Below are positions 4,132 to 36,788 of a DNA stretch of 64,000 nt, in pieces. Every line of letters begins with the position of its first letter. Position 1 is the first letter of the stretch. This DNA comes from a bacterium. Lineage in GTDB: Bacteria; Electryoneota; RPQS01. The stretch lies in the NCBI GenBank assembly GCA_036504735.1, contig DASXUQ010000016.1, forward strand, positions 1-64,000. Direction: 5' to 3'. The position numbers and the translations under genes were made by a program. The notes below the pieces were generated by a model. That model was not told the origin of the DNA. It was given only the letters and a program-made list of their open reading frames with translations, and searched no databases.

Positions 4132-5826
4132 ATGAACTCGCGCGTTCCAAACCTGCTGATGAACAACAGTCTCATCAGTCAGGAACAGTATCTGCTTTTC
4201 AAATCCCGGCAGAAGGACTCCGGCAACTCGGTCGTCACGGAGCTGTGCAAGCTCGGCGTGATCACGGAGGAGCAGATCGCGTCTTTTCTGGCGAGCTACT
4301 ATGATTTGCAGAGAATGGACCTTGAAGGCGTCGAGGTTCCCGAGGTCGTGCGCAAACTGCTCTCGCCCGAGTTCGTCCAGAAATATCAGGCGCTGCCCGT
4401 CAAACGCACGGGCAAGATTCTGCAGGTCGCGCTGGTGGATCCGAGCATTGATTTCGTCGTTGAGGACATAAAGTTCATCACGGGCTTTAACGTTCAGCCG
4501 GTCGTCGTCACCGAGACGCAATTCCTTCGCGCCATCGAGATGTACTACCACATGGGCGGGACGCTGGACAAGATCCTCAAGGACATCGGCGATGATGTTG
4601 GGGCGGAGATCGTGCCCGACCGGCAGGAAACGGAAGCGGACAAACTCAAGGAAGAGATCGAAGCCGCGCCGGTGGTCAAACTGCTGGACGGCATCATCGC
4701 CGACGCCGTGCAGAAGGGCGCGTCGGATATTCATATCGAGCCCTACGAGACCCAGCTTCGCATCCGCTTCCGTGTGGACGGCATGCTGACCGAGGTCATG
4801 TCGCCGCCGCTGCACATGCGCAACGCGATCATTTCCCGCGCCAAGATCATGGCTAACCTCAACATCGCGGAGCGCCGCGTGCCGCAGGATGGCCATATCA
4901 AGATGAAACTCTCAGACCGCACCATCGACCTCCGTGTCTCCACGCTGCCCACGCTGTTCGGAGAGAAAGTCGTGATGCGTATTCTGGATAAGAGCAACCT
5001 GACCCTCGATCTCTCGACCTTCGGATTCGAAGAGCATGCCCTGGAAGATTTCGCGCGGGCCATCCGCCTGCCGTACGGCATGATTCTCGTCACGGGTCCC
5101 ACGGGATCGGGCAAGACCACCACACTGTACAGCGTGCTGGCCAAGCTGAATACGCCGACGGTAAACACAATGAGCGCGGAAGACCCGGTGGAGTACAACT
5201 TCTCCGGATTGAATCAGGTGCTGGTGCGCGACGAAGTGGGCTTGACCTTCTCAGCGGCGTTGAAAGCGTTCTTGCGGCAGGACCCGGACATCATCATGAT
5301 CGGCGAAATCCGTGATCTGGAGACAGGCTCGATTGCGGTACGCGCGGCGCTCACCGGGCACTTGGTGCTCTCAACGCTGCACACGAACTCGGCCTGCGCG
5401 ACCATTTCACGACTGACGGATATGGGAATCGAGCGATTCCTTGTGTCGTCGTCGCTGTCTTTGATTGTAGCCCAGCGGCTCATCCGGAAGATCTGCACCA
5501 AGTGCAAGGCTCCGGTCGAGGTGCATCCCGAGGCGCTGACGGAGGCAGGAATCGATCCCGAGCAGGCGCGCGGGAAGATATTCTATCGAGGAGCCGGATG
5601 CATCGAATGCAACAACTCCGGCTACCGCGGACGATCAGGTATTTATGAAGTGATGCCGATCACGCCCAAGCTGCGCACCATGATTCTCGACGGGAAGCCG
5701 CCTGCGGAATTGGAGGCGGCGGCGGTCAGCGAAGGTATGCTGACACTGCGGACCGGAGCCATCAAAAAATTTGAGCGAGGCATAACCACCATTGAAGAAG
5801 TTCTCCGCGTGACAGGAGACACATGA
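4132..5826 (+). CDS. pilB: Type IV pilus extension ATPase PilB
   Basis: The cytoplasmic motor that powers pilin polymerisation at the inner-membrane platform (PilC). 564 residues, the usual length. Residues ~1-150 form the MshEN/T2SSE N-terminal domain (ISQEQYLLFK, then VITEEQIASFLASYY, then VALVDPS). The ATPase core has Walker A GPTGSGKTT at 322-330, a Walker B region (DPDIIMIGEIRD) and a His-box (LSTLHTNSA). A four-cysteine zinc motif (C455-x2-C458 and C490-x2-C493) is typical of PilB/GspE and absent from retraction ATPases. First gene of the pilus locus, 66 bases after a candidate sigma54 promoter. GspE of a type II system is the alternative, but the company of pilT, pilC, pilMNOPQ settles it. 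Confidence 0.95.
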   Translation: MNSRVPNLLMNNSLISQEQYLLFKSRQKDSGNSVVTELCKLGVITEEQIASFLASYYDLQRMDLEGVEVPEVVRKLLSPEFVQKYQALPVKRTGKILQVALVDPSIDFVVEDIKFITGFNVQPVVVTETQFLRAIEMYYHMGGTLDKILKDIGDDVGAEIVPDRQETEADKLKEEIEAAPVVKLLDGIIADAVQKGASDIHIEPYETQLRIRFRVDGMLTEVMSPPLHMRNAIISRAKIMANLNIAERRVPQDGHIKMKLSDRTIDLRVSTLPTLFGEKVVMRILDKSNLTLDLSTFGFEEHALEDFARAIRLPYGMILVTGPTGSGKTTTLYSVLAKLNTPTVNTMSAEDPVEYNFSGLNQVLVRDEVGLTFSAALKAFLRQDPDIIMIGEIRDLETGSIAVRAALTGHLVLSTLHTNSACATISRLTDMGIERFLVSSSLSLIVAQRLIRKICTKCKAPVEVHPEALTEAGIDPEQARGKIFYRGAGCIECNNSGYRGRSGIYEVMPITPKLRTMILDGKPPAELEAAAVSEGMLTLRTGAIKKFERGITTIEEVLRVTGDT

Positions 5827-17300: not shown

Positions 17301-19242
17301 GACGCTTCCGGCGAACGGCACGTCGGCGACACAGATTACCGCCCATCTGGTGCGCGCAAGCACGATGGTCGCGATTCCGGGCATGGCGGTGAACTTCGGA
17401 TCCTCCCTGGGTTCTATTCCCGCGAGCGGCATGACGGATTCCTCCGGGCGGGCCACCGTAACGTTGACGTCCGCCAATACGGCGGGCATCGCCACGGTCA
17501 TCTCGCGCTTCGGCAACGTGATTACCGACACCGCGACCGTAACGTTCTACGCTTCGACACCGACAACCCTGTCTCTTTCGGCGACGCCGACGGTGCTGCC
17601 TGCCAACAATTCGGCGAGCTCGACGGTAACGGCGGTGGTCACAGATCAGGACGGAAACCCCGTGCCTGACGGCACTCAGATTCATTTCTCGATTCCGCCG
17701 CAGTACGGTTCCCTCGAAACCATGCGCACGACTCATGGCGGCGTGGCAACGAACGTTCTGACCTCGGGAAGCACGCCGGGCTCGGTGCGCGTGACCGCAT
17801 GGTCCGAGGCCAACGCCAGCGTGCGAGACAGCGTATCGCTGACCTATACGGTGGGCGATCCGGGGGCGATTGTGCTGACGGCACAGCGGGACACGCTGAG
17901 CGCCAACGGCATTGCCGTGGATACGATGACGGCGCATGTCACCGACGCGATCGGCCATGCACTGGCCAACGTGGAGGTCCACTTTACCACGACCATCGGC
18001 AACATTACCGCCAGCCGCGTGACGGATGCCGGCGGCAATGCCCGTGTGGCCTTTACGTCTTCGCAGACCGGCGCGGCGCAGGTGACCGCGTTCATCGGCG
18101 GCATTCAGGACAATTACACGGTCTACCTGATTCCCGGCGGAGCCAACAGCATTTCCATGAGCTACAACCCGGGCTCGGTGGGCGTACGCGGCAGCGGTCG
18201 CAACGAGACGCTGCTGATCACGGCGACGGTGCGCGACGCCAACAACAATCCTGTGGTTGACGGCACGGCGGTGACGTTCAACATCGCCAGTTCGCCGGGT
18301 GGAGGAGATTTCCTTTCGACGACGGGCGTGGTGTCCACGATCAACGGACAGGCTTCCGTGGCTTACAGCAGCGGCACGGTGTCGGGCAGCGCGCGAATTC
18401 GCGCCATCTGCGGCAGCGTGAGCGCGGTGTCGACCGAGATCCTCGTCTATGCCGGCCCGCCTTACATGGAAGACCTGACGAATCCCTGCGAAACCAGCCA
18501 CATGTCCTTGGCCCCGAGCCCGTGCAACATGTTCGGTATGGACGTGGTGGGCGATTCGGTGAGCCTCGTGGCACTGGTAGGCGACCGCTACAACAACCCG
18601 GTGACCGCGGGAACGGCGGTGTATTTCACCACGTCGGGCGGCGTGATTACCACGGCGACGGGTTACACCGATTCGCTGGGCTTCGCGCGGGTAACGCTCT
18701 ACTCGGGACATCCGCTGCCGAGCATCGACCGCTGGCTGAACACGCTGACGGATCCGAACCAGGCGGGAGCGATTCTCTGTTCTCCCACGCCGACCATGCC
18801 GGGTGTGGCCAAGGTGATGGTGTCGTCCGCGGGAGTGAATGCCGCAGGCGACAGCATTACGGTGTGGGCGACGACGGATGTGCGGTTCAATTACGGCCAG
18901 CCCATTCTTGAAGTGCGCAGCGCCACCGTCAACGGCAGTGACACAACGCGGACGTTGTTCATCGGCCAGAATGCGGTGATTACGGTGGCGGCCTTCGATC
19001 CGGACTTCTGGCCGCTCGTGGCCGGGTCCACGTTGAGTTTCTCGGCGAACCACGGAATGATTTATCCGAGCGAGATCACGGTGGGGTGTCCGGGCGACAC
19101 GAGTTTCGCCATCAGTTTCTTCAACAACCTGACCGTAACCGATGACGACGCGGCTTCACCGGTACTGATTACCGTGGACACGAGGCAGGCCGACGTCTAC
19201 ACGTTTACCGAGACGTTTACGCTGCGAGCGGCATTGCCGTAG
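14365..19242 (+). CDS. Giant lipoprotein of bacterial Ig-like (invasin Big_1-type) repeats
   Basis: About 1625 residues. The GTG at 14365 is chosen because AAGGAGG stands seven bases upstream. The N-terminus has a basic leader, a hydrophobic stretch (ALTLAAVMLWLGC) and a lipobox-like Cys, so probably lipid-anchored. The rest is at least 13 tandem Ig-like modules of ~90-110 residues, each opened by an LxADGxS-xxxxTAxVxDAxGNPV signature and containing V-F-x-TTxGxI-S-x-x-TDxxGxA and A-x-L-x-S strands, as in invasin/intimin stalks. One module carries a ~45-residue basic, Asn/Arg-rich insertion (around 15850-15970). No enzymatic domain is evident. Embedded between a pilus regulator and minor pilins, it is likely a surface stalk or adhesin that works with the pilus; that role is inference. 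Confidence 0.85.
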   Translation: MKQSRRAYRVWLPALTLAAVMLWLGCEQKGDISPTGTNRQVLTFLDTVFVDPAIVVPGGTATVNALVLNESNEPAVSENVRFSVSRGALGGNHADTTIHCDQAGWARATITAPADSGEILVRTELLSMAEMRTNAIRVSAIPAGEGLLSLWVDSDTLFADNGVSRTRVYARLRNEAHNPIVGAEIFFSTSIGSITSPVITDSLSGTAVATLVSTTEIGIAVVGATHNSTQDSLRVSFLQPAAASDIRLSAAKPTLNAGNDSTTITAYVLDASNRPISDNTVVFFGTTRGTLSNLTARTQSGVATAVLHSSPTTGMATVSATTGGTVQGSTDVAIVPGPATSVLVSSTADTLFADNSSTAAISALVRDSYGNPVSEGTPVSFTAQGGTVTEASTTGPDGRAAAIFRAGLAIGPATVVATQGNAHGNANIYLKATVAATLSLSANPLQLSADGTSQSALRAAVLDVEGRPVSDGTPVTFNSHLGVITATATPLLQKSGNLTMARSSAWNPVLARNRKDNPNAAAKSVRRADRPGRTNSLYTTTTEGGYAYATLTSPTQVGPDTITATAQTLSDMRVVTYVAGPAALIQVTPTDAQLPADGTSHTRITSRVTDAFGNPLSGGVAVSVTSTLGQVNPASGFTGTDGTFTTNLYSSRQSGLCGVVASTSGASGYGEVTFTVPDVAGVAVFSSSPSVLADGISTAMMTVLASDAGGLPVQGAGVSWHYDAGLGLLIGGTTITDSAGQAHALYVSGASTTDATQNVSATIGTHSDTRVMRLLGVSLTAWADTTDLPADGQSTTNANVLVRETTSGFAVPNATVHFAASIGAIVGTGVTNSSGIATATYRSAPQEGDVSITTVYGDTLRAQTGLRLTGTLADTLFVTVGQYELLADGVSSTPVTAIIFNPSGQRVPNTAVTFTATGGGTFDPPSSMTDQNGQAIATYYSAPMDHDQNVDLTVAITRDSDLKQMLLRGVRLDVTAAETTLPANGTSATQITAHLVRASTMVAIPGMAVNFGSSLGSIPASGMTDSSGRATVTLTSANTAGIATVISRFGNVITDTATVTFYASTPTTLSLSATPTVLPANNSASSTVTAVVTDQDGNPVPDGTQIHFSIPPQYGSLETMRTTHGGVATNVLTSGSTPGSVRVTAWSEANASVRDSVSLTYTVGDPGAIVLTAQRDTLSANGIAVDTMTAHVTDAIGHALANVEVHFTTTIGNITASRVTDAGGNARVAFTSSQTGAAQVTAFIGGIQDNYTVYLIPGGANSISMSYNPGSVGVRGSGRNETLLITATVRDANNNPVVDGTAVTFNIASSPGGGDFLSTTGVVSTINGQASVAYSSGTVSGSARIRAICGSVSAVSTEILVYAGPPYMEDLTNPCETSHMSLAPSPCNMFGMDVVGDSVSLVALVGDRYNNPVTAGTAVYFTTSGGVITTATGYTDSLGFARVTLYSGHPLPSIDRWLNTLTDPNQAGAILCSPTPTMPGVAKVMVSSAGVNAAGDSITVWATTDVRFNYGQPILEVRSATVNGSDTTRTLFIGQNAVITVAAFDPDFWPLVAGSTLSFSANHGMIYPSEITVGCPGDTSFAISFFNNLTVTDDDAASPVLITVDTRQADVYTFTETFTLRAALP

Positions 19243-21272: not shown

Positions 21273-22931
21273 ATGCGAACAGCATGGACCATCGGGCGAG
21301 ACGGGCAGGGCAAAGGGCGGCAGGCGGACCAGCGGGGCTTTGTAATGCTGGTGGCGCTGATACTGCTCAGCGGGTTGGTGTTCATTGCGGGATCGGCGGC
21401 GATCCGTTCGACCCGGCAAACACAGGTGTCCAGCGCGGAGTTGGACAATGCGCGGACGTTCTATGCGGCGGAAGGAGCGGTGGAATTCGGATCGGATCAG
21501 TTGCGCACGCTGCTGAACAACGTGCTCGATCCGACACAGGGGCAACTGGATGCGATTACGGCGCCCACGATTCCGGGATTCACCATCACCAATTATCATG
21601 TCACCAAGGTGGGCGCCCTGACGTCCGAGCGGATCACGTCGGGAGACTACACCGGCCTCGACGGTTATGTGCAGCGGTACAACGTGGAGGCGGACGCATC
21701 CAGCGAGCGGCGCAACACCCACATCGTACGGGAAATCCAGCATCAGTACATCCCGCTTTTTCAGTTCGGTGTGTTCTATGAAAAGGATCTGGAAATCTTC
21801 CCCGGTGCGGATATGACCTTCTCGGGGCCGATTCACACCAACGGCGACCTGTATATGGGCTGTGACGGGGCGACGCTGCGCTGCCAGTCCACGGTGACGG
21901 CGGTGGGACGGTACTGGCATTACCGGAAAGACAATTCGCACATCGATCTGAGCGGGCCGGTTTACATCAAGGATACCTTCGGCACGTGGCAGAACGTCTG
22001 GCGGGGCAGTTACTGGCTGGACAACCGCCGGGTCACCTGGGCTTCGGATGCGCTATCGCTTTGGGGCGGGAATTTCCGCGACGCGTCGCACGGCTTGTCC
22101 ACCTTGCGGCTGCCGTTGCCGGCCACGTCCGATCAGCACGAGGTGATCGAGCGCGGCGTCGCCGGAGACAATGCGATGCAAAAAGCTTCGAAGTACTGGT
22201 ACAAGGCTACCGTGCGCTATGTGGACGGAGCGTTGAAGGACAGCGCGGGGCACGTCTTGACCCAACCGGGTGTGTACACCTATACGCAGAACAAGTTCTA
22301 TGACGCGCGTCAGAACAAAAACATGGACGTTGTGGACATCGACGTGGCCGCGATGATCGCGGGACACTACGTTCCGCCGAATAACATTCTCTACATCAGC
22401 AACTCGTCGGGCGACGCGCCCTGCGTGCGTCTGAAAAATGCGGCCACGCTGCCGTTGGGCGGCCTGACCGTGGCCACGGACCTGCCGTTGTACATTATGG
22501 GGAATTACAATTCCGTTTCCAAGAAGGGTTCCTCGCTGCTGTGCGACGCGATTACGATTTTGTCGCCGGCATGGACGGACGGCAATTCCGCGCAGCCCAT
22601 CGGAAACCGGATTGCCACCCCCGTGACCGTCAACGCCTGCGTCATGGCCGGGCACGTGAACACACCGAACGGCGGAACGTACAGCGGCGGACTGGAGAAC
22701 ATCTTCCGCTTTCTGGAATCCTGGTCGGGAGTGACGGTAACCTTCCGGGGCAGCATCATCGATTTGTGGTTCAGCCGCCTGGCGACGGCGCCATGGGGGC
22801 AGGGGAATGTCTATAATCCTCCCAACCGAAACTGGGGCTATGATACGGATCTTTTGTCGCCTACGAACTGGCCTCCGGGCGCACCGAAGGTGCATACGGT
22901 ACAGCGCGGCACGTGGCGGCAAATCAGTTGA
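21273..22931 (+). CDS. PilX/GspK-like prepilin-type protein
   Basis: 552 residues. Leader ends QRG|FVMLV followed by the hydrophobic helix ALILLSGLVFIAGSAA. Val replaces Glu at +5, as in PilX/GspK-type minor pilins that cap the fibre. The helix continues into STRQTQVSSAELDNARTFYAAEGAVE, a signature of the PilX N-terminal family. The large C-terminal part contains strand-rich modules (GPIHTNGDLYMG, NGTPVTVNACVMAGHV-like segments) of unknown function, possibly a beta-helix like the DUF4900-type modules seen after PilX N-termini. AGGAGA eight bases before ATG. Large size suggests a tip subunit. Confidence 0.78.
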   Translation: MRTAWTIGRDGQGKGRQADQRGFVMLVALILLSGLVFIAGSAAIRSTRQTQVSSAELDNARTFYAAEGAVEFGSDQLRTLLNNVLDPTQGQLDAITAPTIPGFTITNYHVTKVGALTSERITSGDYTGLDGYVQRYNVEADASSERRNTHIVREIQHQYIPLFQFGVFYEKDLEIFPGADMTFSGPIHTNGDLYMGCDGATLRCQSTVTAVGRYWHYRKDNSHIDLSGPVYIKDTFGTWQNVWRGSYWLDNRRVTWASDALSLWGGNFRDASHGLSTLRLPLPATSDQHEVIERGVAGDNAMQKASKYWYKATVRYVDGALKDSAGHVLTQPGVYTYTQNKFYDARQNKNMDVVDIDVAAMIAGHYVPPNNILYISNSSGDAPCVRLKNAATLPLGGLTVATDLPLYIMGNYNSVSKKGSSLLCDAITILSPAWTDGNSAQPIGNRIATPVTVNACVMAGHVNTPNGGTYSGGLENIFRFLESWSGVTVTFRGSIIDLWFSRLATAPWGQGNVYNPPNRNWGYDTDLLSPTNWPPGAPKVHTVQRGTWRQIS

Positions 22932-22939
22932 GGTCATTC

Positions 22940-24133
22940 ATGAAGAACTTGTTCGGCGATAAGGGTAATCCGGAGTTGCAGGCGCGAGACGCCATGCGGC
23001 AGAAGAAGTGGGGCAAGGCGCTCGAGTTCTACAGCAAGCGTCTCGAGGAGAATGAGCGGGACTTTGCCCTGTGGAATCTGGTGGGCGACCTGCACATCAA
23101 CAATCGCTCCCGTGCCCAGGCGGTGGAAGCCTGGCGGCGCGCGCTGGAAGGCTTCGCACTGGAAGGATTGTACGAAAACGTGCTGGGCATCGCGCGGAAA
23201 ATCCTGCGCCGTACCCCCGAGGAAGAGGACGTGCATCTGCTGTTGGCCGAGGCGTATCTCGGGCTGGAGTATCAGGCGGACTGTCTGGCATCCTTCCGCA
23301 GTTACCTCAAGCTGTCGCGTCATCGCTCCGAAAGCGATATGCGCTCGCTGTTCAAGAAGATCCTCGACCAGCCGATCCGGCACGCGCATCTGCTGCACGA
23401 ATTGGAGGCGCTTTGGAAGGAGTCGGCCATCGAGGACTTCGAACTGGAGCAGCGCCTGCTGGAGTACGTGAAGACCGGACTGGAACACGCGGTGTCTCAC
23501 GCTCCGGCGGAACCGGACGAGGATGCGGACCGTCCTTACGGCGAAACTGGGAGACGCGCGGCGGCGGAGTCTTCGGAGGAGAATCTGATCACCCTCGACG
23601 GGCTGGATTCCTTCCCGGAAGACATTGCGATGGACACGTTGTCCTACACACCGCCGATGATGAACGTCGATGTGCCGCCGGCCCGGCCCGCCCCGGTGCA
23701 ATATGAAGCGGTTTCAGGCGAAGAGGCCGAGGAGCAGCCGACGGGCGCGGGGCGTGACCATTACGATCTGGGAGTTGTCTACAAAGAGATGACGCTCTGG
23801 GACGCGGCCATGGCCGAATTCGAACAGGCACGGCAGGACAAGTCGATCCGTGCCCGCGCTACCCTGGCCCTGGCGGAGTGCCTGCAGGAGTCGCGCGATC
23901 TGCAGGGTGCGCTGGAATTGCTCGAGAGCGAGTCGCAGCAGTCGGACGGATCTCCCGTGGAACAGCTTACCGTCATCCACCAACTGGGAATAGTGCACGA
24001 GCTGTTAGGCAATCTCGATCAGGCGCTGAACCTGTTTAAGACCGTACACGACCGGCATCCCGGATACGGCGACGTGGAAACGCGGATTTCGGCTCTTCAA
24101 AGCCGTCTCGAAAACGACAGTCCGGCGGAGTGA
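22940..24133 (+). CDS. TPR-repeat protein of the pilus accessory module
   Basis: 397 residues from ATG 22940 with TGAGGT just upstream. No signal peptide, so cytoplasmic. Residues ~15-150 form TPR-like helical pairs (KKWGKALEFYSKRLEEN, RAQAVEAWRRALEGF, EDVHLLLAEAYLGLEYQADCLASFRSYLKL). Then an acidic linker (~185-275), then a second TPR block to the C-terminus (YDLGVVYKEMTLWDAAMAEFEQA, LGNLDQALNLFKTV). TPR proteins scaffold complexes; PilF-type pilotins are TPR lipoproteins but this one lacks a lipobox. First gene of the accessory module between minor pilins and pilMNOPQ. Confidence 0.75.
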   Translation: MKNLFGDKGNPELQARDAMRQKKWGKALEFYSKRLEENERDFALWNLVGDLHINNRSRAQAVEAWRRALEGFALEGLYENVLGIARKILRRTPEEEDVHLLLAEAYLGLEYQADCLASFRSYLKLSRHRSESDMRSLFKKILDQPIRHAHLLHELEALWKESAIEDFELEQRLLEYVKTGLEHAVSHAPAEPDEDADRPYGETGRRAAAESSEENLITLDGLDSFPEDIAMDTLSYTPPMMNVDVPPARPAPVQYEAVSGEEAEEQPTGAGRDHYDLGVVYKEMTLWDAAMAEFEQARQDKSIRARATLALAECLQESRDLQGALELLESESQQSDGSPVEQLTVIHQLGIVHELLGNLDQALNLFKTVHDRHPGYGDVETRISALQSRLENDSPAE

Positions 24134-24161: not shown

Positions 24162-25283
24162 ATGGATTTACGCGGATTACTTGAACTACTGTTCGTGAAG
24201 AAGGCGTCGGACCTGCATCTGCGGGCCGGAGCGCTTCCCGTGCTGCGCATCAATGGCGATCTGTTTGCCACCCGGCCGGAGAAGGTGACCGCCGAGGAGA
24301 TGGATACGCTGCTGAAAGATGTGCTCACTCCGCAGCAGCTTGAAGCACTGTACCGGGACAAGGAACTGGACCTGGCGCTGACGGTGCCGGGGCATGGCCG
24401 TACCCGCGTCAACGCATTTTTTCAACGGGGCTCCGCGGCATTGGCGTTTCGCGCCATCAAGACCCAGATTCCGTCCTTCAAGGATCTGATGCTGCCGTCG
24501 GTGCTGGAAAAACTGGCCAATCTGCGGCGTGGGATTGTGCTGTTCACCGGCGCGACGGGCTCGGGCAAGTCCACCTCGCTGGCGTCGCTGATCGAATATA
24601 TCAACATCCATCGCAGCACCAACATCCTGACGATCGAAGATCCGATTGAGTACATCTTCAGCAACAAGAAGTCGCTGATCGCCCAGCGCGAAGTGATGAT
24701 CGACACGCTGACCTTCTACAGCGCGCTGGTCCATGCGCTGCGCGAAGACCCCGACATCATCATGGTGGGTGAGACACGGGATCCGGAGACGATGAAAGTG
24801 GCGTTGCAGGCGGCGGAGACCGGCCACCTTGTGCTGACGTCGCTGCATACTCTGAATGCCGTGGAAGCCATCAACCGCATTATTTCTTTCTTCCCGCTGA
24901 ACGAGCAGATGCAGATCCGGTCGATTCTGGCGGGGACGGTGCAGGCAATCATTTCGCAGCGGCTGGTGGCGCGCTCGGACAAGCCGGGGCGTGTGCCCAT
25001 CGTCGAGGTTCTGGTAAGTACGGCGGCGGTGCAGGAGTGCATCTCAGATCCGGACAAAATGCATTTGCTGCAGGGATTTCTCGAAGACGACCGCGGCACA
25101 CACGGCATGCAGACCTTCGACCAGTCCATCCTGTCCCTGCTGCGAAACGGCACGGTCTCTTTCGAGACGGCGATGGAAAGCGCGACCAACCCGCACGATT
25201 TGGAAATGGCGGTGCGGGGAATCAATTCTTCGGGCTCACGGTTCGCGGCGGCGGCTGCGAACAACGCGGAGACCCGGCAATGA
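24162..25283 (+). CDS. Second PilT-type retraction ATPase (PilT2/PilU-like)
   Basis: 373 residues. Same architecture as PilT: N-terminal KKASDLHLRAGALPVLRING, Walker A GATGSGKST (Pro of the usual GPTGSGKS replaced by Ala), Asp-box EDPDIIMVGETRD and His-box LTSLHTLNA. The C-terminus reads MQTFDQSILSLLRNG, a signature of PilT/PilU-type ATPases, but the AIRNLIRE-type helix of PilT is not conserved (AVQECISD). PilU-type ATPases assist PilT and usually cannot retract alone. It sits away from pilBTC and next to the MshEN-DnaA-type fusion, so it may be governed by that module. Confidence 0.85.
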   Translation: MDLRGLLELLFVKKASDLHLRAGALPVLRINGDLFATRPEKVTAEEMDTLLKDVLTPQQLEALYRDKELDLALTVPGHGRTRVNAFFQRGSAALAFRAIKTQIPSFKDLMLPSVLEKLANLRRGIVLFTGATGSGKSTSLASLIEYINIHRSTNILTIEDPIEYIFSNKKSLIAQREVMIDTLTFYSALVHALREDPDIIMVGETRDPETMKVALQAAETGHLVLTSLHTLNAVEAINRIISFFPLNEQMQIRSILAGTVQAIISQRLVARSDKPGRVPIVEVLVSTAAVQECISDPDKMHLLQGFLEDDRGTHGMQTFDQSILSLLRNGTVSFETAMESATNPHDLEMAVRGINSSGSRFAAAAANNAETRQ

Positions 25284-25343: not shown

Positions 25344-26033
25344 ATGGGCAAGAAAGAGACGACGCTGGGCAATCTGGATGAACGGGGTGTGCTGCCTGTC
25401 ATCCGGGCGATTTTCCATGACGAATGGGGCGGAGTGCTGCGGGTGCGCACGGCGGGCCGCAACTGCTCCCTGTGGTTTGTGAAGGGCCAGATCGCCCATG
25501 CCCTTCTTACGGAAGGCAAGCAGCGTGTCGACGGCGTGGCTGCCCTGGAGAAAGTGGCCTTGTGGACGAAGGGCACGTTCATGCTGGATGCGGGTGAACT
25601 TCCCCCGGCGCGGAGCATCCGGCTGGCGATGGACGACATCCTGAGTTTCCTTGAGCACGAGGCGGGCGCCGTTACCGAAGCCGCGGCGGAACCGAAGCTC
25701 GACCATCTGGAAAGCGTGCTGGAGAGTCTGCGCGAACGCGTTCCCGGCCTGGAGTCGCTGAGCGTCATGAACGGCGCGCTGGTGGAAGCGACCACGGCCC
25801 TCGACCTCAAGGAACGCGGATGGCTGAGCGAGCAGCTCCGTTCCTATTGCGGCGAGGACTCGGTCAAACCGGAGAAGTTGTTCCTTCAGCAGGGAGACCA
25901 TACGCTGCTGATTCTGAAGCGCGGGCAACTGGCGACGGTCTTGTCGGCGCGGACAGGAACGGCTCCCGAGGCACTGTTCTGGGCGGGGGAAGAGGCACGC
26001 AAACGCGTGATGACGGAAGAGACGAAGGACTGA
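25344..26033 (+). CDS. DUF4388 protein with possible roadblock/LC7 domain
   Basis: 229 residues from ATG 25344, with GGAGGAGAGG just upstream. N-terminal ~110 residues match the DUF4388 (PATAN-like) pattern: LDERGVLPVIRAIF, GVLRVRTAGRNCSLWFVKGQI, then KGTFMLD. Residues ~120-229 resemble the roadblock/LC7 fold (VPGLESLSVMNGALVEAT, LLILKRGQLATVLSA). Both domains occur in small-GTPase and polarity systems of gliding bacteria (for example MglB is a roadblock GAP), but no Mgl-type GTPase is in the window. Cytoplasmic. Thirteen bases upstream of the MshEN-DnaA-type fusion gene. DUF4388 call fairly firm, roadblock call tentative. Confidence 0.7.
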   Translation: MGKKETTLGNLDERGVLPVIRAIFHDEWGGVLRVRTAGRNCSLWFVKGQIAHALLTEGKQRVDGVAALEKVALWTKGTFMLDAGELPPARSIRLAMDDILSFLEHEAGAVTEAAAEPKLDHLESVLESLRERVPGLESLSVMNGALVEATTALDLKERGWLSEQLRSYCGEDSVKPEKLFLQQGDHTLLILKRGQLATVLSARTGTAPEALFWAGEEARKRVMTEETKD

Positions 26034-26046: not shown

Positions 26047-27381
26047 ATGGCCGTGGGCGCGAAACAGCAGACCCTTTCCACAGTACTGACCGAGAAGAAG
26101 GTGATCAGCGAGGAGCAGTACGCTCAGGCGTGCGACTATCAGAAACAGCACAGCGTCAGCCTGGACCAGGCGCTGATGGATCTGAACATTCTCGCGCAGG
26201 AGGATTTGATCGCCCTCTACCGCGATGTGCTGCAGGTGCATTTCCTCAAGCTGGAAGACGTGGAAATCGACCGCGAAGCGGTGCGGCACGTGCCGGCATC
26301 GGTGGCCCACCGGCATCATTTGATTCCGGTGCGGCGCAGCGGGAACTCCCTGGCCGTTGCCATGACCGACCCGACCGATCCGCAGGCGATGGCGGCCCTG
26401 CGCAGCGTCACCGATTTCGAAATCATTCCCTTTGTGGGGCGCTATGACGCCATTGAGCACGCGCTGTATGTGCACTATGGCGATCCGGCCAATGCCACGG
26501 ACGCGGCGGACGTCTCACCGGGCGATCACGTTATCCGCGCCCGTGCGCTGCTGGAGGATGAACGCATCGGGCAGGTGGGGAAGAGCGTACAGCTTAACCG
26601 CAGTCAGACCTTCGACAGCTTCGTCGCCGATACGGCGAATGAGTTTCCGTTGAACGTGGCCCGCTCCATCAGCGATTTGCACGGGGACGAGGAGTACAAT
26701 CCCTTCCATTGCTGGGGTGCGGAAGGCTGCGGCAAGTCGCATCTGCTTCAGGCCATCGCCAATCATGTGCTGGCGCATTCCCCGTTGAAACGGTGCGTGC
26801 TTACCAGCGGGCAGCGGTTTGTGGATGAACTCTTCGCCAGCATCCGCGACAAGAAAGTGAACTTCTTCCGCTACCTGTACGGCGAACTGGACCTGCTGCT
26901 GATCGACGACGCGGAAGCCCTGCTCACGCGGGACTGGGCGCAGCGCGAACTGGGGGAGACGTTTCGCAATCTGCAACGCAAGGGAAAGCGGCTGGTGGTG
27001 GCCTCGCGGCACAACCTCGCGACGGAGCCGCGCCTGATTCCCGACCTGCGGGTGGCGCTGGAATCGGGAGTCATCGCCGGGTTTTCGGCCTATTCGGTGC
27101 TTGCGCGGATGGACATTGCGCGGCGCCACGCCAACGGTGTGGACCTGAAAGACGATGTTCTGAGCGAACTAGTTGCGCGCAGTAACACCAGTCAGCGCGA
27201 TCTGCTGGACCTGTTGCAGCAGGTGACTGTGATGGCCGCGCTGTCGCAGAAAGAAGTCACGGTGGAACTGGTACGGGACCTGATTAACCTGTGCGGCAAG
27301 GTGGCGGCGGAAACCCCGGCGGATCGCGCACGCACTCTCTTTGACCTGAGCCCGCTCGGAGGCGCGAAGAACAGCTTATGA
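26047..27381 (+). CDS. MshEN domain fused to a DnaA-type AAA+ ATPase
   Basis: 444 residues, cytoplasmic. Residues ~5-145 are an MshEN/T2SSE N-terminal domain like that of PilB: VISEEQYAQACDYQ, ALMDLNILAQEDLIALY, VPASVAHRHHLIPV, VAMTDPTDPQAM. After a linker, residues ~185-430 follow DnaA domain III step by step: TFDSFVADTANEFPLNVA, then YNPFHCWGAEGCGKSHLLQA (Walker A, Lys230), FVDELFASIRDKK, Walker B LLLIDDAE (Asp287-Asp288), sensor 1 (LVVASRHN) and a sensor 2-like NTSQRDLLDLL. The arginine-finger segment of DnaA (SRF) reads ALE, and the DNA-binding domain IV is absent, so it is not a replication initiator; in that respect it resembles Hda. It overlaps the next gene by four bases. An adaptor for a pilus motor is the obvious guess. 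Confidence 0.85.
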   Translation: MAVGAKQQTLSTVLTEKKVISEEQYAQACDYQKQHSVSLDQALMDLNILAQEDLIALYRDVLQVHFLKLEDVEIDREAVRHVPASVAHRHHLIPVRRSGNSLAVAMTDPTDPQAMAALRSVTDFEIIPFVGRYDAIEHALYVHYGDPANATDAADVSPGDHVIRARALLEDERIGQVGKSVQLNRSQTFDSFVADTANEFPLNVARSISDLHGDEEYNPFHCWGAEGCGKSHLLQAIANHVLAHSPLKRCVLTSGQRFVDELFASIRDKKVNFFRYLYGELDLLLIDDAEALLTRDWAQRELGETFRNLQRKGKRLVVASRHNLATEPRLIPDLRVALESGVIAGFSAYSVLARMDIARRHANGVDLKDDVLSELVARSNTSQRDLLDLLQQVTVMAALSQKEVTVELVRDLINLCGKVAAETPADRARTLFDLSPLGGAKNSL

Positions 27382-27770
27382 GCACTCTGAAAGTTCTGGT
27401 GGTCGACGACGACCCCCGCTATCTCGAACTGCTTGAGTTCACGCTGGAAGGCGAGGGCTTCGACGTGCGCACGGCGCAGGATTCGACGACGGTGCAGGAT
27501 CTGGCCGTGCAGATGCAGCCGGATGTGATTGTCACGGATGTGACCATGCCGGCGATGGACGGCTATGCACTGGCGGCGGGGTTGAAGTCCGATCCGCGAA
27601 CCGCGCAGATTCCGCTGATTTTTGTCACGGCTCGAGGGATGGACGGGGAGCGTCAGCAGGGCCTAAATGTCGGAGGAGTGGATTACCTGATGAAACCGTT
27701 TTCGGTGGGAGACCTCGTGGCGCGTATCCGGCGTGTAGCCTGTCAGACTCCGGTGCGGGGGGAGCAGTGA
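27378..27770 (+). CDS. Single-domain response regulator (CheY-like)
   Basis: 130 residues, receiver domain only. Acidic pair VVDDD at the start, phospho-acceptor Asp54 (VIVTDVTMPAMDG), Thr in FVTARG and conserved Lys in YLMKPFS. No output domain, so it should act by protein contact, as PilG/PilH or CheY do. Start ATG overlaps the end of the MshEN-DnaA-type gene, and its stop overlaps the start of the next kinase gene (TGATG), so the three are translationally coupled and probably work together. Confidence 0.92.
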   Translation: MSTLKVLVVDDDPRYLELLEFTLEGEGFDVRTAQDSTTVQDLAVQMQPDVIVTDVTMPAMDGYALAAGLKSDPRTAQIPLIFVTARGMDGERQQGLNVGGVDYLMKPFSVGDLVARIRRVACQTPVRGEQ

Positions 27771-28948
27771 TGGAGACTGAACGGGCACGGGAAAAGGGCG
27801 GAGGCGCCGCGGGACCGGAAGTGTGGCAACACCTGATCGAGACCTCGCCGGACATCGTCTACGTGTTGAGTCCGGACGGTGTGTTTCTCGACGTCAATCC
27901 GCAGTTGTGCAAGATCCTGAAACTGCCGCGCGAACGGGTGATCGGCTCGAAGATCGGTGCGCAACTGGACCGCGACCACGTGGCGCTGGCCGAGCGCGTG
28001 CTGAAGAGCATTGTCGAGCGGCGGACGGTGGAACGCTCCACCCGGACCTATCATCCGTCGGGCGGGGACGCGCACACGTTTGAAGTGGTGGAAACGCCGC
28101 TGGTGCGCGACGGACGGGTGTGGGCGGTTGCAGGCATCGGACGTGACATCACAGAGGATCTGACGCTGGAGCGCAAGCTGTGGGATACCGCTGAAAGCCG
28201 GCACTCGGCTGTGGACTTCGCGCTGCGGACATCGTTGGGCCTGGTCAAAGGGTACGTGTACACTCTCGGACAAAGCCACGCCATGGATGACGTGCGGCGC
28301 GCGCGCTACGTCCACATCATCGAGGAAGAGATTGACCACCTGGCCAAGATCATTGAAGACATGCTGGATGTGCGGCGGATGGAGATCGGCGACCATCAAT
28401 ATGACGAAGAGATCGTGGACGTGGCGGATTGCGTCGCCTACGCGGTGCGGCAATGCGAGGAAGAATCGCAGCGGCGGGAGATCCGGGTCACGGTACGGAT
28501 CAGCGAGCGGATGGATCCGGTCTACACCTCGCGTGAAGGACTGATCCGCGTGCTGCTGAATCTGGTGCAGAACGCCATTCACCACACCTTGCATACCGGT
28601 GAAGTGCAGGTGGAGGCGCAGGACCACGAAGCGTACGTGGAATTTATCGTCAAGGACAACGGAACGGGCATTCCCGAGAATGAACTGCCGTATGTATTCG
28701 ACAAGTACTATCGCGCCAAGAGCAGTGTGGCGTCTCCGGTGCAGGGCACGGGCCTTGGGCTTACCATCTCCCGCACGCTGATTGAGGCGATGGGGGGACG
28801 GGTGTGGGCCACCAGCCGGGTGGGAGCAGGTTCGGAGTTTCGAGTGGTATTGCCGCGGCGTCCCGTGGAAACGGGTGGCGCGGGCGAAGGCGAAGCGGAG
28901 TTTCCGGGGTTCGCATCCCTGCCGGCGAAATCAGCATCTACTATCTGA
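27770..28948 (+). CDS. PAS histidine kinase lacking the phospho-acceptor histidine
   Basis: 392 residues, no membrane segments. PAS domain at ~20-135 (ETSPDIVYVLSPDGVFLDVN, GIGRDITED). The dimerisation helix follows, but the H-box HELRTPL reads FALRTSL: Phe150 stands where histidine should be; the nearest His is residue 145, off register. The ATPase domain is complete: N-box LLNLVQNAIHH, G1 VKDNGTGIP, F-box YVFDKYYRA, G2 GTGLGL. So it should bind ATP but cannot phosphorylate itself at the usual site. Coupled to the upstream single-domain response regulator. Compare with PilS (9104), which shows the opposite loss. Confidence 0.88.
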   Translation: METERAREKGGGAAGPEVWQHLIETSPDIVYVLSPDGVFLDVNPQLCKILKLPRERVIGSKIGAQLDRDHVALAERVLKSIVERRTVERSTRTYHPSGGDAHTFEVVETPLVRDGRVWAVAGIGRDITEDLTLERKLWDTAESRHSAVDFALRTSLGLVKGYVYTLGQSHAMDDVRRARYVHIIEEEIDHLAKIIEDMLDVRRMEIGDHQYDEEIVDVADCVAYAVRQCEEESQRREIRVTVRISERMDPVYTSREGLIRVLLNLVQNAIHHTLHTGEVQVEAQDHEAYVEFIVKDNGTGIPENELPYVFDKYYRAKSSVASPVQGTGLGLTISRTLIEAMGGRVWATSRVGAGSEFRVVLPRRPVETGGAGEGEAEFPGFASLPAKSASTI

Positions 28949-28960
28949 GGGCGATTGATT

Positions 28961-30664
28961 ATGGCAAAGCGTGCCAAGGTGGGCATAGGGCTGGACGTGG
29001 GAAGCCGCAGCATTCAACTGGCGGTACTCCGCCAGAAGAAGAACGGCGTCACGGTGGAACGCGTGGCCTCGAAGGAGTTGACCCACGACGCGATTGTCGA
29101 GGGGATGGTGATGGATTCGCAGGTGGTCTGCGACACCGTCGCGGCGCTTCTGAAGGAGAATCACGTGGCGGGCAAAGAGGCCGCGATTTCCGTGAGCGGC
29201 CGCCGCGTGATGATCAAGAAGATTGCCACGGATGAGATGAGCGACGATGAACTCGACGCCACCATCGCCTATGAAGCGAAGAGCAATTTGCCCTTCGACA
29301 CCAGCGAAGTGTCCATGGATTATGCGCGTCTGCCGCAGGATGTGGACAGCGGGCGCATGGAACTGCTGCTGGTCGCCGCAAGGAATGAGATTGTCTTCGA
29401 CGCCGTGGAGACGCTGCGCTGGGCGGGCGGTAAGCCGGTTCTGCTGGAAGCCGAACCGTTTGCTTTGCAGGCGGCGCTGTCGGAATCGGGGTACCTCGAC
29501 GATCAGTCGACGGTGGCCGTGCTGCAGATCGGATTTCAATCCACCGATGCGGTGCTGTTCGACCGGGGGCAATACGAGAGCAACCGCGATCTGAGCGTGG
29601 GCGGCAAAACGTTTGTCGAGGGACTGATCAAGGAGCTCGGAATCAGCTTCGAACGCGCGGTGGCTCTGCTGGCGCACCGGGACTACAGCCCGGAGGAGCA
29701 AGAGGTTGTCGCCCGGGTTGCGCAGCATGTGAGTTCCATGCTCTGCGATCAGGTAGAGCGCAGCTTCCCGGAATTCTTCGGTCCCAATGCGGAGAGTGCG
29801 GGTTTGCGCATTCTGCTCTGCGGCGGGGGCGCCTATCTGCCCGGCCTCGAAGCGGAACTTAGGCAACATTTCGGGGCGGACGTGGAAATCGTCAACCCTT
29901 TCCGCCGCCTCGAGGTGAATGTGAAGTCCGTGGACGCGGCGACCGCCGAATCGGGCACGGACTACACGGCGGCCGTCGGGCTCGCGCTGCGGGCACTGGG
30001 AGACGATCATCCCGGGTTCAATTTGCTGTTTGCCAGCGACAAGCCGAGTTATAAGAAACGCAACTACGCGGGCCTGAAGACCGTGGTTCCGGTGGTCGGT
30101 TTCTCGGCAATGCTGTTCGGCATGGGCATGATCTATCTCAGCCAGGAAAACACGCTGAACGGTTTGAACCAGAAGCTCAAATCGATCCGCAAGGAGACCG
30201 ATCTCTACCGGGACAAGATCGCGCTGGTGGAGGAACTGACGCGCAAGCGCGCGGATGTGTCCGCCAGAATCGACGTGATCTCCGAACTGGACCGCAATCG
30301 CTTTGCCCGCGTCAAGGTGATGCAGCTTGTGAATAATTGCCTGCCGGAACTGACGTGGCTGGTGGATGTGCAGGAGCTTCCCGCGGGGCGGGGGGCGGGC
30401 CTCAGCATTACGGGTCTGACCAGTTCGAATCTGAAGGTTTCGCAGTTCATGACGAATTTGCTGCAGTCGAAAGACGTGCGCGGAGTGGATTTGCAGGTGT
30501 CGGAGCAGACGGAGCTTGCCGGCGCGACCGTGACGCGTTTTACGCTGCAGGTTGCGGTGCCGGATCTGGGATTGTCCGGTCCGCCGCCGGCGCCTCCCAC
30601 CGACGCGGCCAAAAAGAGCGCCGCGAAAGCTAAGGCGAAGGCGGACGCCAAGTCGGGGAAGTAA
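28961..30664 (+). CDS. pilM: Fused PilM-PilN alignment protein
   Basis: 567 residues from ATG 28961 (TGAGGG upstream). Residues 1-345 are the actin-like PilM: GIGLDVGSRSIQLAVL, AISVSGRRVMIKKI, VAVLQIGFQSTDAVLF and RILLCGGGAYLPGLEAEL. PilN follows without a stop. Its conserved N-terminal NLL motif, which docks into PilM in separate proteins, is at 354-356 (FNLLFAS). A membrane helix spans ~370-390 (VVPVVGFSAMLFGMGMIYL), then a periplasmic coiled coil and ferredoxin-like domain (NNCLPELTWLVDVQEL), and a Pro/Ala/Lys tail. This covalent layout equals GspL of type II secretion. The PilMN-PilO-PilP complex links the cytoplasmic motors to the secretin. Confidence 0.9.
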   Translation: MAKRAKVGIGLDVGSRSIQLAVLRQKKNGVTVERVASKELTHDAIVEGMVMDSQVVCDTVAALLKENHVAGKEAAISVSGRRVMIKKIATDEMSDDELDATIAYEAKSNLPFDTSEVSMDYARLPQDVDSGRMELLLVAARNEIVFDAVETLRWAGGKPVLLEAEPFALQAALSESGYLDDQSTVAVLQIGFQSTDAVLFDRGQYESNRDLSVGGKTFVEGLIKELGISFERAVALLAHRDYSPEEQEVVARVAQHVSSMLCDQVERSFPEFFGPNAESAGLRILLCGGGAYLPGLEAELRQHFGADVEIVNPFRRLEVNVKSVDAATAESGTDYTAAVGLALRALGDDHPGFNLLFASDKPSYKKRNYAGLKTVVPVVGFSAMLFGMGMIYLSQENTLNGLNQKLKSIRKETDLYRDKIALVEELTRKRADVSARIDVISELDRNRFARVKVMQLVNNCLPELTWLVDVQELPAGRGAGLSITGLTSSNLKVSQFMTNLLQSKDVRGVDLQVSEQTELAGATVTRFTLQVAVPDLGLSGPPPAPPTDAAKKSAAKAKAKADAKSGK

Positions 30665-30703
30665 GCAACAACGCAAGGTGCCTTGAACGGCACGGAGGAT
30701 ATC

Positions 30704-31138
30704 ATGACAGGAAAGTTGGCCGTTATCGCGGGCGTCGCACTTGCCTTCCTTCTGTTGGGCGTGGGCTGCGACCAGGGTGTTGATGATTGGAGCAGTTCCG
30801 CACGGGTGACGGGCGAAGTCTTCACCGACGCCACGCACACGCACGGCATTCCGGGGGTACGCGTGATTCTTGAGGGAGATCCGAGCGCCGACCATCCCTA
30901 CGATGGCCCGGACCGCTGGACGCAGACCGACAACAACGGTCATTTTGAAGGAGCCGTGTTTCTCGGCAACAAGGACGGCGCGTACACCTACCTTGCCGAC
31001 ATGAGCGTGGGCTATTTCTACGGCAACAAAGCCTTCACGTGGAAGGGCGGCATCACGGTGGGGCCGGGCAGCGTGTTTACGCTTCCACCGGTGGATACGA
31101 CGATGTTCAGCCCGCTCGCCGGCAACGGCGGACAATAA
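30704..31138 (+). CDS. Lipoprotein with carboxypeptidase-regulatory-like fold between pilMN and pilO
   Basis: 144 residues from ATG 30704, with CGGAGG eight bases upstream. Signal peptide LAVIAGVALAFLLLGVGC with lipobox-like Cys. The mature part begins SSSARVTGEVFTDATHTHGIPGVRVILEG and continues with TQTDNNGHFEGAVFLGN, the pattern of CnaB/carboxypeptidase regulatory-like beta-sandwiches. Not a known component of the pilMNOPQ set. Its position (39 bases after pilMN, 9 before pilO) argues for a role in the envelope-spanning complex, perhaps as a pilotin or periplasmic spacer; that is inference. Confidence 0.7.
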   Translation: MTGKLAVIAGVALAFLLLGVGCDQGVDDWSSSARVTGEVFTDATHTHGIPGVRVILEGDPSADHPYDGPDRWTQTDNNGHFEGAVFLGNKDGAYTYLADMSVGYFYGNKAFTWKGGITVGPGSVFTLPPVDTTMFSPLAGNGGQ

Positions 31139-33875: not shown

Positions 33876-33904
33876 TTGACTTTAGGGACATAATTTGTTA
33901 AATT
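33876..33904 (+). promoter_or_regulatory. Housekeeping-sigma promoter of the first protease gene
   Basis: TTGACT at 33876-33881, 17-bp spacer, TAAATT at 33899-33904. Transcription near 33911 rules out translation from any in-frame codon upstream of that point and supports the ATG at 34033. Confidence 0.65.
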
Positions 33905-34032
33905 GTTTAGATTTTGCCCCACCTTCGCAGCAATCCATGTCAGGACCACAGGGTCTGTTGTCTCCTTTTTGTTTTTGCTGCATTTGTCGGCTTCGTTACT
34001 ATTCTTCTCTTCGTCAAATTCCGGAGTTTGTT

Positions 34033-36753
34033 ATGCGACACTGGCTGGCTTTGCTCCTGACTCTGCTTGTGGTCTGCTCCCTGTCTGTCAGTGCGCGTGA
34101 ATCGGACCGATGGGCTCAAGCCGAATTTCTGCCCGGGCGCTTGATCGTGGATTTTACGCCGCAGGTTAAGGTCCATGCGTCGAGTGTGGATGACGCTCTG
34201 ATGGCCACCGGTGTCGAATCGCTGGATGCGCTGTTCACGGAATATGAAGTCAGAGCGGCCTGGCGGCTGGTGCCGGACGGCACTCTGTCGCGGCTGAAGG
34301 TGGCGCCCGATCTGTACAGCACGTATGTGCTCGAGTTCAACGAAGGCGCGCTGGTGCTGGATGCGCTGGACCGTTTCGCGGCGGATTCTCATGTGCGGCG
34401 CATCGAGCCGGATGTGGTTTGCCGTACGTTTCGCACTCCCAATGATTCGTATTGGACTCAGCAGTGGGACAAGCGCATTGTCGGCGCGAATACGGTGTGG
34501 GACGTGGCGACGGGCACGCGGGCGATTGTCTGCGCCGGGATCGACGTCGGTGTGGACTGGCGGCATGCGGATCTGACTCCCAACCTGTGGGTAAATCCGG
34601 GCGAAGACGTGACCGGAGACTCGGTCGCGTGGACCTCCACCGACTATCCGGGTGACTGGAACGACGTGGACGGTACGGACAACGACAGCAACGGCTACGT
34701 GGACGATCTGCTGGGATGGGATTTTATTCAGGGCATTCATGGCTGTGCGCAGGGGGAAGACTGCGACGGTGCGATGGATAATAACATGCTGGGGTTGAAT
34801 TCGCACGGCACCCACGTTGCGGGACTGATGGTGGCGCGCGGCAACAACGGCATCGGCGTGGCCGGAATGAGCTGGTACGGGCGGCTGATGGCATTGCGCG
34901 CAGGCTACGAAGATGAATCGGGGAATGGCTATATTCCGGAAAGCGCGTCGGCTCCGGCCATTCTGTATGCCGCGGCCAATGGCGCGAATATCTTGAACAT
35001 GTCGTACGGCGGCCCGAGCATGTCCGAGTACGCGCAGGAAGTCATCAACTCCGCGTGGGACCAGGGGTGCATACTGTTTGCTGCATCGGGCAATGACGGT
35101 TCCACGACGCCGCAATACCCGGCGAATTTTGCGAATGTGATTGCCGTGAACTCCACGGATAACGATGACGGCCTGTCCTACTTCTCCAATCGCGGCACGT
35201 GGACGGATCTGTGTTCACCGGGCGGCGATCCGGGCATTATGAGTACGGTGGTCGGCAGCTACGGGATCATGGAAGGAACCTCGATGGCCAGCCCCAATGC
35301 GGCGGGCGTAGCGGCGCTGGTCTGGTCGATTTTTCCGCAGATGACGAACGCCCAGCTTCGGGATCTGCTGTTCAACACAGCAGCGGACATTCACGCGCAG
35401 AATCCGAGCATTCCGGTATCTTACCTCGGGCATGGGCGGATCAGTGCGCGCAACGCCGTTGCATCCCTTTACCCCCAGATGCGGATCACCACCTCCACGT
35501 TCAGCGATTCTGTGGGCGGCGATAACGATGGCCGGCTCGAAGCCGGAGAGACCGTGCGGTTGTATCTGACGGTGACCAACGTGACCGGCTGGGCCAATGG
35601 CGACAGTTTGACGGCAGTGGTCTCGGCGGCCGATTCCAATTTGACGATTACGAATAACAGTTGGTACCTCGGAGCTATGGCCACCGGCCAGAGCCGGAGC
35701 AACAGTTCGTCGCCGGTTTTGATCCGTGCAGCCGGCACGCTGGACACGGCGTACTGGCGGGACATCCATGTGATCTTCAGTTCGCCGAGCGGTTATGCAG
35801 AGACGCAGTCGCTGACCATCCGCATCGGACGCGGGCGCGTCCTGGTGGTGGACGACGACGGCACGGCGAACTATGAGCAGTACTATGTAACCGGGGCGAC
35901 GACGAGCGGAGTGTCATCGGATTTGTGGAGCGTAAACACCGACGGAGTGCTGCCCGAAGCGGAAATGAGCCGGTACCCGGTTTTGATCTGGAGTTGCGGC
36001 GACCGTTCGTCGTCCACTCTGACCGCCGAGGATCAAGGCAACTTAATGACCTATCTGGACGCCGGCAATAAGCTGATTCTGATCGGACAGAATATCGATG
36101 AGGATCTGCGCACGTCACCGTTCTACGCCAATTACCTGCATGCCCAGAGCGAACAGCTTGCGGGTGAACGGCAGGTGGGCGGCATCAATGGAAATCCGGT
36201 GTCGGAAGGCATGAGCCTGTTGCTGGTCGGAGCCTTGTGCGCCGGTAACGGCAGCTTGAGCCCGTCGCGAATTCTGCCGCGCGATGGCGCGGTCGCAATG
36301 TTCGACTATGCCGGCGGCGGGACCGGCGCGATCCAGTATGAAGGAACCTACAAATTGGCGTACTTTGCATTCGCCCTTGAAGCCGCCTGCGGGTCCAACA
36401 ATACCAACCGTTATGATGAGGTGATCTCGTCCGTGTTGAACTGGATGGGCGCCCTCGACGCCCGGCCTGCGGTGCACACGCCGCAGCCGCTGTCGCTTGC
36501 CTTGCATGGAAACTATCCCAATCCTTTCAATCCCAGCACGACCATTTCCTTTGACGTGGCTACACCTGCGCGTGTGACGCTGCGAGTCTACGATATTCTC
36601 GGTCAATCGGTGGCCACGCTGGTGGATGGACCGCTGTCTGCGGGCAGCCACAGCGCCGTCTTCGACGGCTCCCGGTTGGCCAGCGGTGTGTACCTGGTGC
36701 GCCTGCAGTCCGGCGCCGTTTCGCTGTCCTCCAAGATGGTTCTGATGAAGTAG
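34033..36753 (+). CDS. Secreted subtilisin-family (S8) protease with sorting domain, copy 1
   Basis: 906 residues from ATG 34033, chosen because it gives a clean signal peptide (LALLLTLLVVCSLSVSA) and GGAG six bases upstream. A propeptide-like region (FLPGRLIVDF, ~35-145) precedes the catalytic domain. Triad: Asp171 (IDVGVD), His258 (SHGTHVAG) and Ser417 (GTSMASPNAAG). Next a beta-sandwich (DNDGRLEAGETVRLYLTVTN, ~500-590), then an alpha/beta domain beginning VLVVDDDGTANYEQYY with LNWMGALD at its end, resembling class I amidotransferase-like folds. The C-terminus is a sorting domain (NYPNPFNPSTTISFD, VYDILGQSV, SGVYLVRLQSG). Expected to be exported by type IX secretion and to digest extracellular protein. 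The next gene is a paralogue with the same domain order. Confidence 0.92.
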   Translation: MRHWLALLLTLLVVCSLSVSARESDRWAQAEFLPGRLIVDFTPQVKVHASSVDDALMATGVESLDALFTEYEVRAAWRLVPDGTLSRLKVAPDLYSTYVLEFNEGALVLDALDRFAADSHVRRIEPDVVCRTFRTPNDSYWTQQWDKRIVGANTVWDVATGTRAIVCAGIDVGVDWRHADLTPNLWVNPGEDVTGDSVAWTSTDYPGDWNDVDGTDNDSNGYVDDLLGWDFIQGIHGCAQGEDCDGAMDNNMLGLNSHGTHVAGLMVARGNNGIGVAGMSWYGRLMALRAGYEDESGNGYIPESASAPAILYAAANGANILNMSYGGPSMSEYAQEVINSAWDQGCILFAASGNDGSTTPQYPANFANVIAVNSTDNDDGLSYFSNRGTWTDLCSPGGDPGIMSTVVGSYGIMEGTSMASPNAAGVAALVWSIFPQMTNAQLRDLLFNTAADIHAQNPSIPVSYLGHGRISARNAVASLYPQMRITTSTFSDSVGGDNDGRLEAGETVRLYLTVTNVTGWANGDSLTAVVSAADSNLTITNNSWYLGAMATGQSRSNSSSPVLIRAAGTLDTAYWRDIHVIFSSPSGYAETQSLTIRIGRGRVLVVDDDGTANYEQYYVTGATTSGVSSDLWSVNTDGVLPEAEMSRYPVLIWSCGDRSSSTLTAEDQGNLMTYLDAGNKLILIGQNIDEDLRTSPFYANYLHAQSEQLAGERQVGGINGNPVSEGMSLLLVGALCAGNGSLSPSRILPRDGAVAMFDYAGGGTGAIQYEGTYKLAYFAFALEAACGSNNTNRYDEVISSVLNWMGALDARPAVHTPQPLSLALHGNYPNPFNPSTTISFDVATPARVTLRVYDILGQSVATLVDGPLSAGSHSAVFDGSRLASGVYLVRLQSGAVSLSSKMVLMK

Positions 36754-36763
36754 ATCATTTGCC

Positions 36764-36788
36764 AAGCCGCCATCACCGGCAGCTTTTT
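36764..36788 (+). terminator. Probable weak terminator between the two protease genes
   Basis: Stem AAGCCGCC/GGCAGCTT (36764-36771 with 36778-36785) with one mismatch, loop ATCACC, followed by TTT. Some read-through into the second protease is likely. Confidence 0.5.

Follow-up and report, generated by a model that had tools for sequence, protein, structure and literature searches.

The choice between extension and retraction motors at the base of the type IV pilus is an open question. The extension ATPase PilB docks in PilM, with contacts between PilM and the N1 (MshEN) part of PilB inferred from T2SS homologues, and the extension and retraction motors compete for the PilM stator (review PMC11656802). 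PilF of Thermus has three GSPII (MshEN-type) domains, of which none is essential for PilMN binding and one, GSPIIC, is needed for stimulation (PMC6325625). Non-motor proteins that control extension at the cytoplasmic base are also known, namely the FimX/PilZ regulators of PilB and SgmX (PMC11656802, PMC7519303), and they are confined to some bacteria. The MshEN domain itself serves as a module on various output domains: the text of PMC5013675 describes fusions to REC, HD-GYP, CheA, CheX, cyclase and Ser/Thr kinase domains and names no DnaA-type AAA+ partner. Our literature search found no paper naming MshEN, DnaA and type IV pili together, nor one reporting such a fusion.

The window analysed here, a 64,000-nt stretch of a bacterial contig, carries within a pilus operon a gene whose product joins these parts (Table 1). 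Residues 63-147 match MshEN (Pfam PF05157, E 2.6e-18; 66.2 bits against a gathering score of 23.1, which all six other fusions scanned also exceeded) and residues 183-341 match Bac_DnaA (PF00308, E 3.4e-32), followed by a weak Hda_lid match at residues 359-412. With the NCBIfam models, DnaA (TIGR00362) scored 146.9 bits over residues 179-414 (curated cut-off 343.9, not reached) and Hda (TIGR03420) 85.2 bits, below its curated cut-off of 194.8. By sequence, the nearest solved structures are PilB, PilF and MshE for residues ~9-155 and DnaA domain III for residues 182-412. An AlphaFold2 model (mean pLDDT 78.8; linker 150-176 disordered) found its best fold matches in DnaA domain III (2z4r and 8bv3, target TM 0.87-0.90). 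Since profile, solved-structure and fold matches agree, the first-pass annotation, which had read an MshEN N-terminal domain and DnaA domain III in one protein and had proposed structure prediction as a check, was right on domain composition. It was equally right that domain IV is missing: Pfam gave no match to the C-terminal, helix-turn-helix DNA-binding domain of DnaA in the fusion, which stops ~30 residues past the lid.

The protein thus differs from each of its closest relatives. It shares the N-terminal MshEN domain (residues 9-155) with MshE and with PilB of Geobacter, Myxococcus and Thermus, but has a DnaA-type AAA+ domain in place of the T2SSE motor domain (PF00437), for which Pfam gave no match; this absence rules out the fusion as a pilus motor. 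With DnaA it shares the AAA+ core, the initiator-specific helices and the lid of domain III, but it is devoid of domains I, II and IV and has lost the arginine finger, the box VII Arg and sensor 1. A second real DnaA is likewise ruled out, because domain IV is missing and another site of the genome (G000:C9) encodes a complete DnaA in its own right (TIGR00362, 483.7 bits). Hda, the regulatory inactivator that stimulates the ATP hydrolysis of DnaA jointly with the sliding clamp, resembles the fusion as a DnaA-paralogous AAA+ protein without domain IV, and the weak Hda-lid match fits this likeness; the fusion nevertheless scores lower to Hda than to DnaA, has no arginine finger, is joined to MshEN and is linked to pilus genes. 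To FimX/PilZ and SgmX we found no sequence or domain relation, although the TPR gene three genes upstream is weakly SgmX-like. One ortholog (L010, in G032) bears an additional C-terminal starch-binding CBM_20 domain (residues 464-544, E 4.9e-11).

Table 1. Features of the pilus locus and of the fusion protein in the window
Feature	Position	Strand	Remarks
PilB of same pilus cluster	4132..5826	+	MshEN-bearing
TPR protein	22913..24133	+	Weak match to SgmX; in syntenic operon
PilT2, second PilT/PilU-family retraction ATPase	24162..25283	+	Syntenic operon
DUF4388 protein	25344..26033	+	Listed ORF starts at TTG 25287; ATG 25344 likelier, orthologs begin there
MshEN-DnaA fusion gene	26047..27381	+	444-aa ORF, uninterrupted
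MshEN_N subdomain of fusion (residues 9-62)	26071..26232	+	c-di-GMP motif degenerate (28.5 bits; cut-off 38)
MshEN_C subdomain of fusion (residues 63-147)	26233..26487	+	Highest conservation within the fusion protein
DnaA domain III AAA+ core of fusion (residues 182-345)	26590..27081	+	P-loop 224-232 intact
AAA+ helical lid of fusion (residues 346-415)	27082..27291	+	Sensor 2 Arg384 present
Stand-alone receiver-domain response regulator	27378..27770	+	Active-site Asp and Lys conserved
PAS histidine-kinase-like protein	27767..28948	+	Without phosphoacceptor His (H-box DFALRTSLG, Phe151)
PilM-PilN fused protein	28955..30664	+	PilM_2 12-347, PilN 455-534; candidate docking partner
Small conserved gene	30683-31138		Between PilM/N and PilO in gene order

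An ortholog search of 39 genomes of the same phylum recovered the fusion in 11 of the 12 genomes that have this pilus locus, comprising 10 of the 11 genomes of the family and one of the two of a sister family. The family genome without it is 56% complete, and the pilus operon itself was not found there. In the other 26 of the 39 phylum genomes this search did not find the fusion, and none of ~880 genomes from outside the phylum (Gemmatimonadota, Myxococcota and two further groups) gave a match spanning both domains at E <= 1e-30, the matches that passed being confined to the DnaA part. Over these 39 and ~880 genomes, the instances found thus fall in one order of one small phylum. A scan of genome contigs with the fusion alignment, in which ordinary DnaAs (by their P-loop pattern) prevail among the matches listed, says nothing on the presence or absence of the fusion in those genomes. 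Two hits were set aside, one an ordinary DnaA from the ortholog search (G003) and the other an extra Bac_DnaA match in G037 that reads as an IstB-like transposase helper adjoining a transposase rather than as a sister case. The first-pass annotation had suggested looking for the same fusion and neighbourhood in other genomes; the 10 orthologs, from separate genomes and with the same neighbours in the same order, rule out chance as well as an assembly artefact.

Gene order is nearly invariant among these loci: pilin, PilW, PilX, TPR protein, PilT2, DUF4388, fusion, response regulator, kinase-like protein, PilM/N, small conserved gene, PilO, PilP, PilQ and S8 peptidase. Wherever the fusion occurs, it is preceded by PilT2 or DUF4388, followed by the response regulator or the kinase-like gene, and located upstream of PilM/N; one genome (G025) lacks DUF4388 only, and another (G028) has no recognisable response regulator. 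The location between a second PilT and a CheY-like regulator that had been proposed at the outset is accurate on the regulator side, but the DUF4388 gene separates PilT2 from the fusion. A natural empty site occurs in G026 (L107, G026:C18:306000-325900), where the gene next to PilT2 is that of PilM/N: the locus lacks the genes for DUF4388, the fusion, the regulator and the kinase-like protein, and the remaining pilus operon is intact. These four genes thus behave as one dispensable cassette, gained or lost together. Within it, the start of the response regulator gene overlaps the stop of the fusion gene (TTATGAGC) and the start of the kinase-like gene overlaps the stop of the response regulator gene, in both cases by a few bases, which suggests translational coupling of the three. 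The Asp and Lys of the response regulator are retained in all 10 copies aligned. In the kinase-like protein, Phe or Tyr replaces the phosphoacceptor His in 11/11 copies, three of which have a degraded ATPase part as well; the missing His makes a simple chain from kinase-like protein to response regulator to adaptor doubtful. The PilM-PilN fusion is found in the other members of the order as well.

Orthologs are 56 down to 25% identical to the fusion of the window, and the conservation is unevenly distributed: 44-75% in MshEN_C, 22-44% in MshEN_N, 23-62% in the AAA+ core (23% in the three most distant orthologs) and 13-51% in the lid. MshEN_C contains residues that are invariant throughout the fusion family (His81, VTD 121-123 and Glu137) and missing from the PilB of the window. 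Between congeneric genomes, the dN/dS of the fusion gene is 0.14-0.20 (~0.07 for PilT2), values indicative of purifying selection. The genome encodes only three MshEN proteins, i.e., the fusion, the PilB of the same cluster and a second PilB, and the MshEN domain of the fusion is closer to the former PilB than to the latter. The second PilB belongs to another type IV pilus cluster (L108, G000:C5:674000-693900) that has its own PilT, PilM and PilQ, and there PilM is separate from PilN.

To define the state of the AAA+ active site, we compared all 11 fusion proteins in one alignment with 61 distinct DnaAs, of which 60 come from other genomes, and placed the functional positions through this alignment and E. 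coli numbering. Residue names and roles are those given for E. coli DnaA in a review (PMC5742627). The three Gly and the Lys of the P-loop, together with the next His, are invariant in the fusions and in the DnaAs, and the GxxGxGK(S/T)H stretch is unchanged in 11/11 fusions. The first-pass annotation had correctly placed Walker A at Lys230 and Walker B at Asp287-Asp288, and both motifs are intact in 7 of the 11 members; Walker B is altered in the remaining orthologs L005, L007, L008 and L011 (L005 has Lys for Asp288, L007 has Ala for Asp287, and L011 has neither Asp). Sensor 1, which had also been claimed, is absent: the Asp of 59/61 DnaAs is Arg321 in the fusion and is kept in a single family member. 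The sensor 2 Arg is indeed present in the protein of the window (Arg384), but only 5/11 members carry it. As for the arginine finger, the whole segment had been reported missing; the segment is there, and it is the functional residue that is gone (Ala337 in the window; Arg in 60/61 DnaAs and in none of the fusions). The box VII Arg is Asp333 here and is retained in 1/11 fusions. The AID-1 Arg equivalent, absent from the protein of the window, is retained in 10/11, and in 8/11 a Trp stands where E. coli DnaA has its B-motif Arg. The lid is shortened in the orthologs of two genera (L011-L013); in a model of L012 the AAA+ core fold survives, and its first match is still DnaA domain III.

The invariant P-loop indicates that ATP binding is probably retained, and the loss of the arginine finger, box VII Arg and sensor 1 makes DnaA-like self-assembly and hydrolysis unlikely. 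This pattern of residues agrees with a domain in which nucleotide binding persists and DnaA-like assembly and hydrolysis have ceased. It upholds, in part, the Hda- or DnaC-like AAA+ switch proposed earlier, inasmuch as nucleotide binding is probably kept, but the elements on which such a switch would act through assembly are gone. The fusion may still act in the manner of DnaA/Hda-class nucleotide switches, and given the altered Walker B of four members and the short lid of two genera, this may not hold for the whole family.

We favor, with about even confidence, the view of the fusion as a regulatory adaptor at the type IV pilus base, with a nucleotide-dependent AAA+ switch fed by the regulator and kinase-like genes of the cassette. 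Fixed gene order, unit-wise presence or absence of the cassette and the MshEN domain support a role in regulating the pilus machine; a regulator of the motor site is the best reading because the protein keeps only the docking part of a motor and its gene neighbors include PilM/N and a second PilT. Its MshEN domain, of PilB-type motor origin, would dock the protein on the pilus base, most likely on the PilM moiety of PilM-PilN, whose gene is the third downstream, or on PilB itself. Such docking is not assured, since the GSPII domains of Thermus PilF are dispensable for PilMN binding. Having only the docking part of a motor, the bound fusion would occupy or mark the motor site and thereby favor, block or time the engagement of either motor, extension or retraction. 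The domain taken from DnaA would bind ATP and serve as a signalling platform or nucleotide-dependent switch rather than as a self-assembling ATPase, or alternatively offer a surface that receives the response regulator; input would come from this regulator and the kinase-like PAS protein. We propose more tentatively that the AAA+ domain is an ATP-dependent motor gate, in which MshEN would compete with PilB for the PilM socket, and nucleotide state and response regulator would jointly choose between extension and retraction.

Other roles for the AAA+ domain account for parts of these data. It is rather unlikely, in our judgment, that the domain is only a protein-binding surface or localisation tag, with catalysis lost and nucleotide playing no regulatory part. 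The three lost catalytic positions, the degraded Walker B of several orthologs, the low core identity of the three most distant members, the truncated lid and a kinase-like neighbor likewise without its catalytic His would all be expected of such a scaffold; yet the P-loop signature stays fixed in every fusion while the domain around it diverges to ~23% identity, which argues that nucleotide binding is selected. The converse possibility, a DnaC/Hda-like loader or remodeller that hydrolyses ATP to assemble, remove or disassemble PilB or PilT hexamers, appears unlikely to us. Domain III is complete, lid included, in most members, both Walker motifs are intact (Walker B as DD) in the majority noted above, and the gene is near that of a retraction ATPase, but no fusion has the trans-acting arginine finger, 10/11 have no sensor 1 Asp and fewer than half keep sensor 2. 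A finger may be supplied by another protein. A nucleotide-binding switch or pseudo-ATPase adaptor is thus likelier than an active loader or unloader. Of the unrecognised mode of pilus-motor control envisaged in the first-pass annotation, the regulatory role is therefore supported by gene order, cassette linkage and MshEN, and active loading or unloading is the less likely part.

Two further readings concern what the fusion might sense, and we rate both as improbable. The first makes it a c-di-GMP effector, MshEN_N sensing the nucleotide and the DnaA-type domain being the output for pilus control. On the model for c-di-GMP-binding MshEN domains with two RLGxx...Q motifs (NF053729, cut-off 38 bits), the sister-family member L009 (50.8 bits) and L004 (40.7) pass, but the fusion of the window and five others tested (18-36 bits) score below the cut-off, and MshEN_N is much less conserved than MshEN_C. 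The PilB of the second cluster passes the same test (63.2 bits) and that of the window does not (24.6). From these scores, c-di-GMP may once have been an input to the fusion. Slightly less probable still is a coupler to the cell cycle, in which the DnaA-type domain would bind cellular DnaA or origin single-stranded DNA and tie pilus activity to replication. The higher score to DnaA than to Hda, the initiator-specific helices and the widely kept AID-1 Arg, though not in the protein of the window, are compatible with it; against it stand the absence of domain IV, the loss of both arginine finger and box VII, Trp in place of the B-motif Arg in most members and the rapid drift of the AAA+ core. 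A tie to replication status, offered earlier as an alternative, found nothing positive in its favor, with domain IV and arginine finger missing and the genome encoding its own DnaA.

Returning to the adaptor reading, a regulator at the pilus base is as such a known kind of protein, and the unexpected element is the DnaA-type part: domain III appears to have left replication altogether. If the gate reading is true, an initiator AAA+ domain of the DnaA type was drawn out of replication into dedicated pilus-motor control. A lineage with a motor docking domain on a replication-initiator ATPase, together with a natural operon without the fusion, offers a testable new route to motor control.

Two other elements of the locus are recorded here. 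Upstream of the minor pilin genes, and conserved in the same operon order, lies a gene for a 1627-aa Ig-like repeat protein (14359-19242), possibly a pilus-associated adhesin. PilQ is followed by two large S8-type peptidase genes (33895-39582) whose products have C-terminal sorting-like tails, and the first of them stands after PilQ in nearly all related loci.
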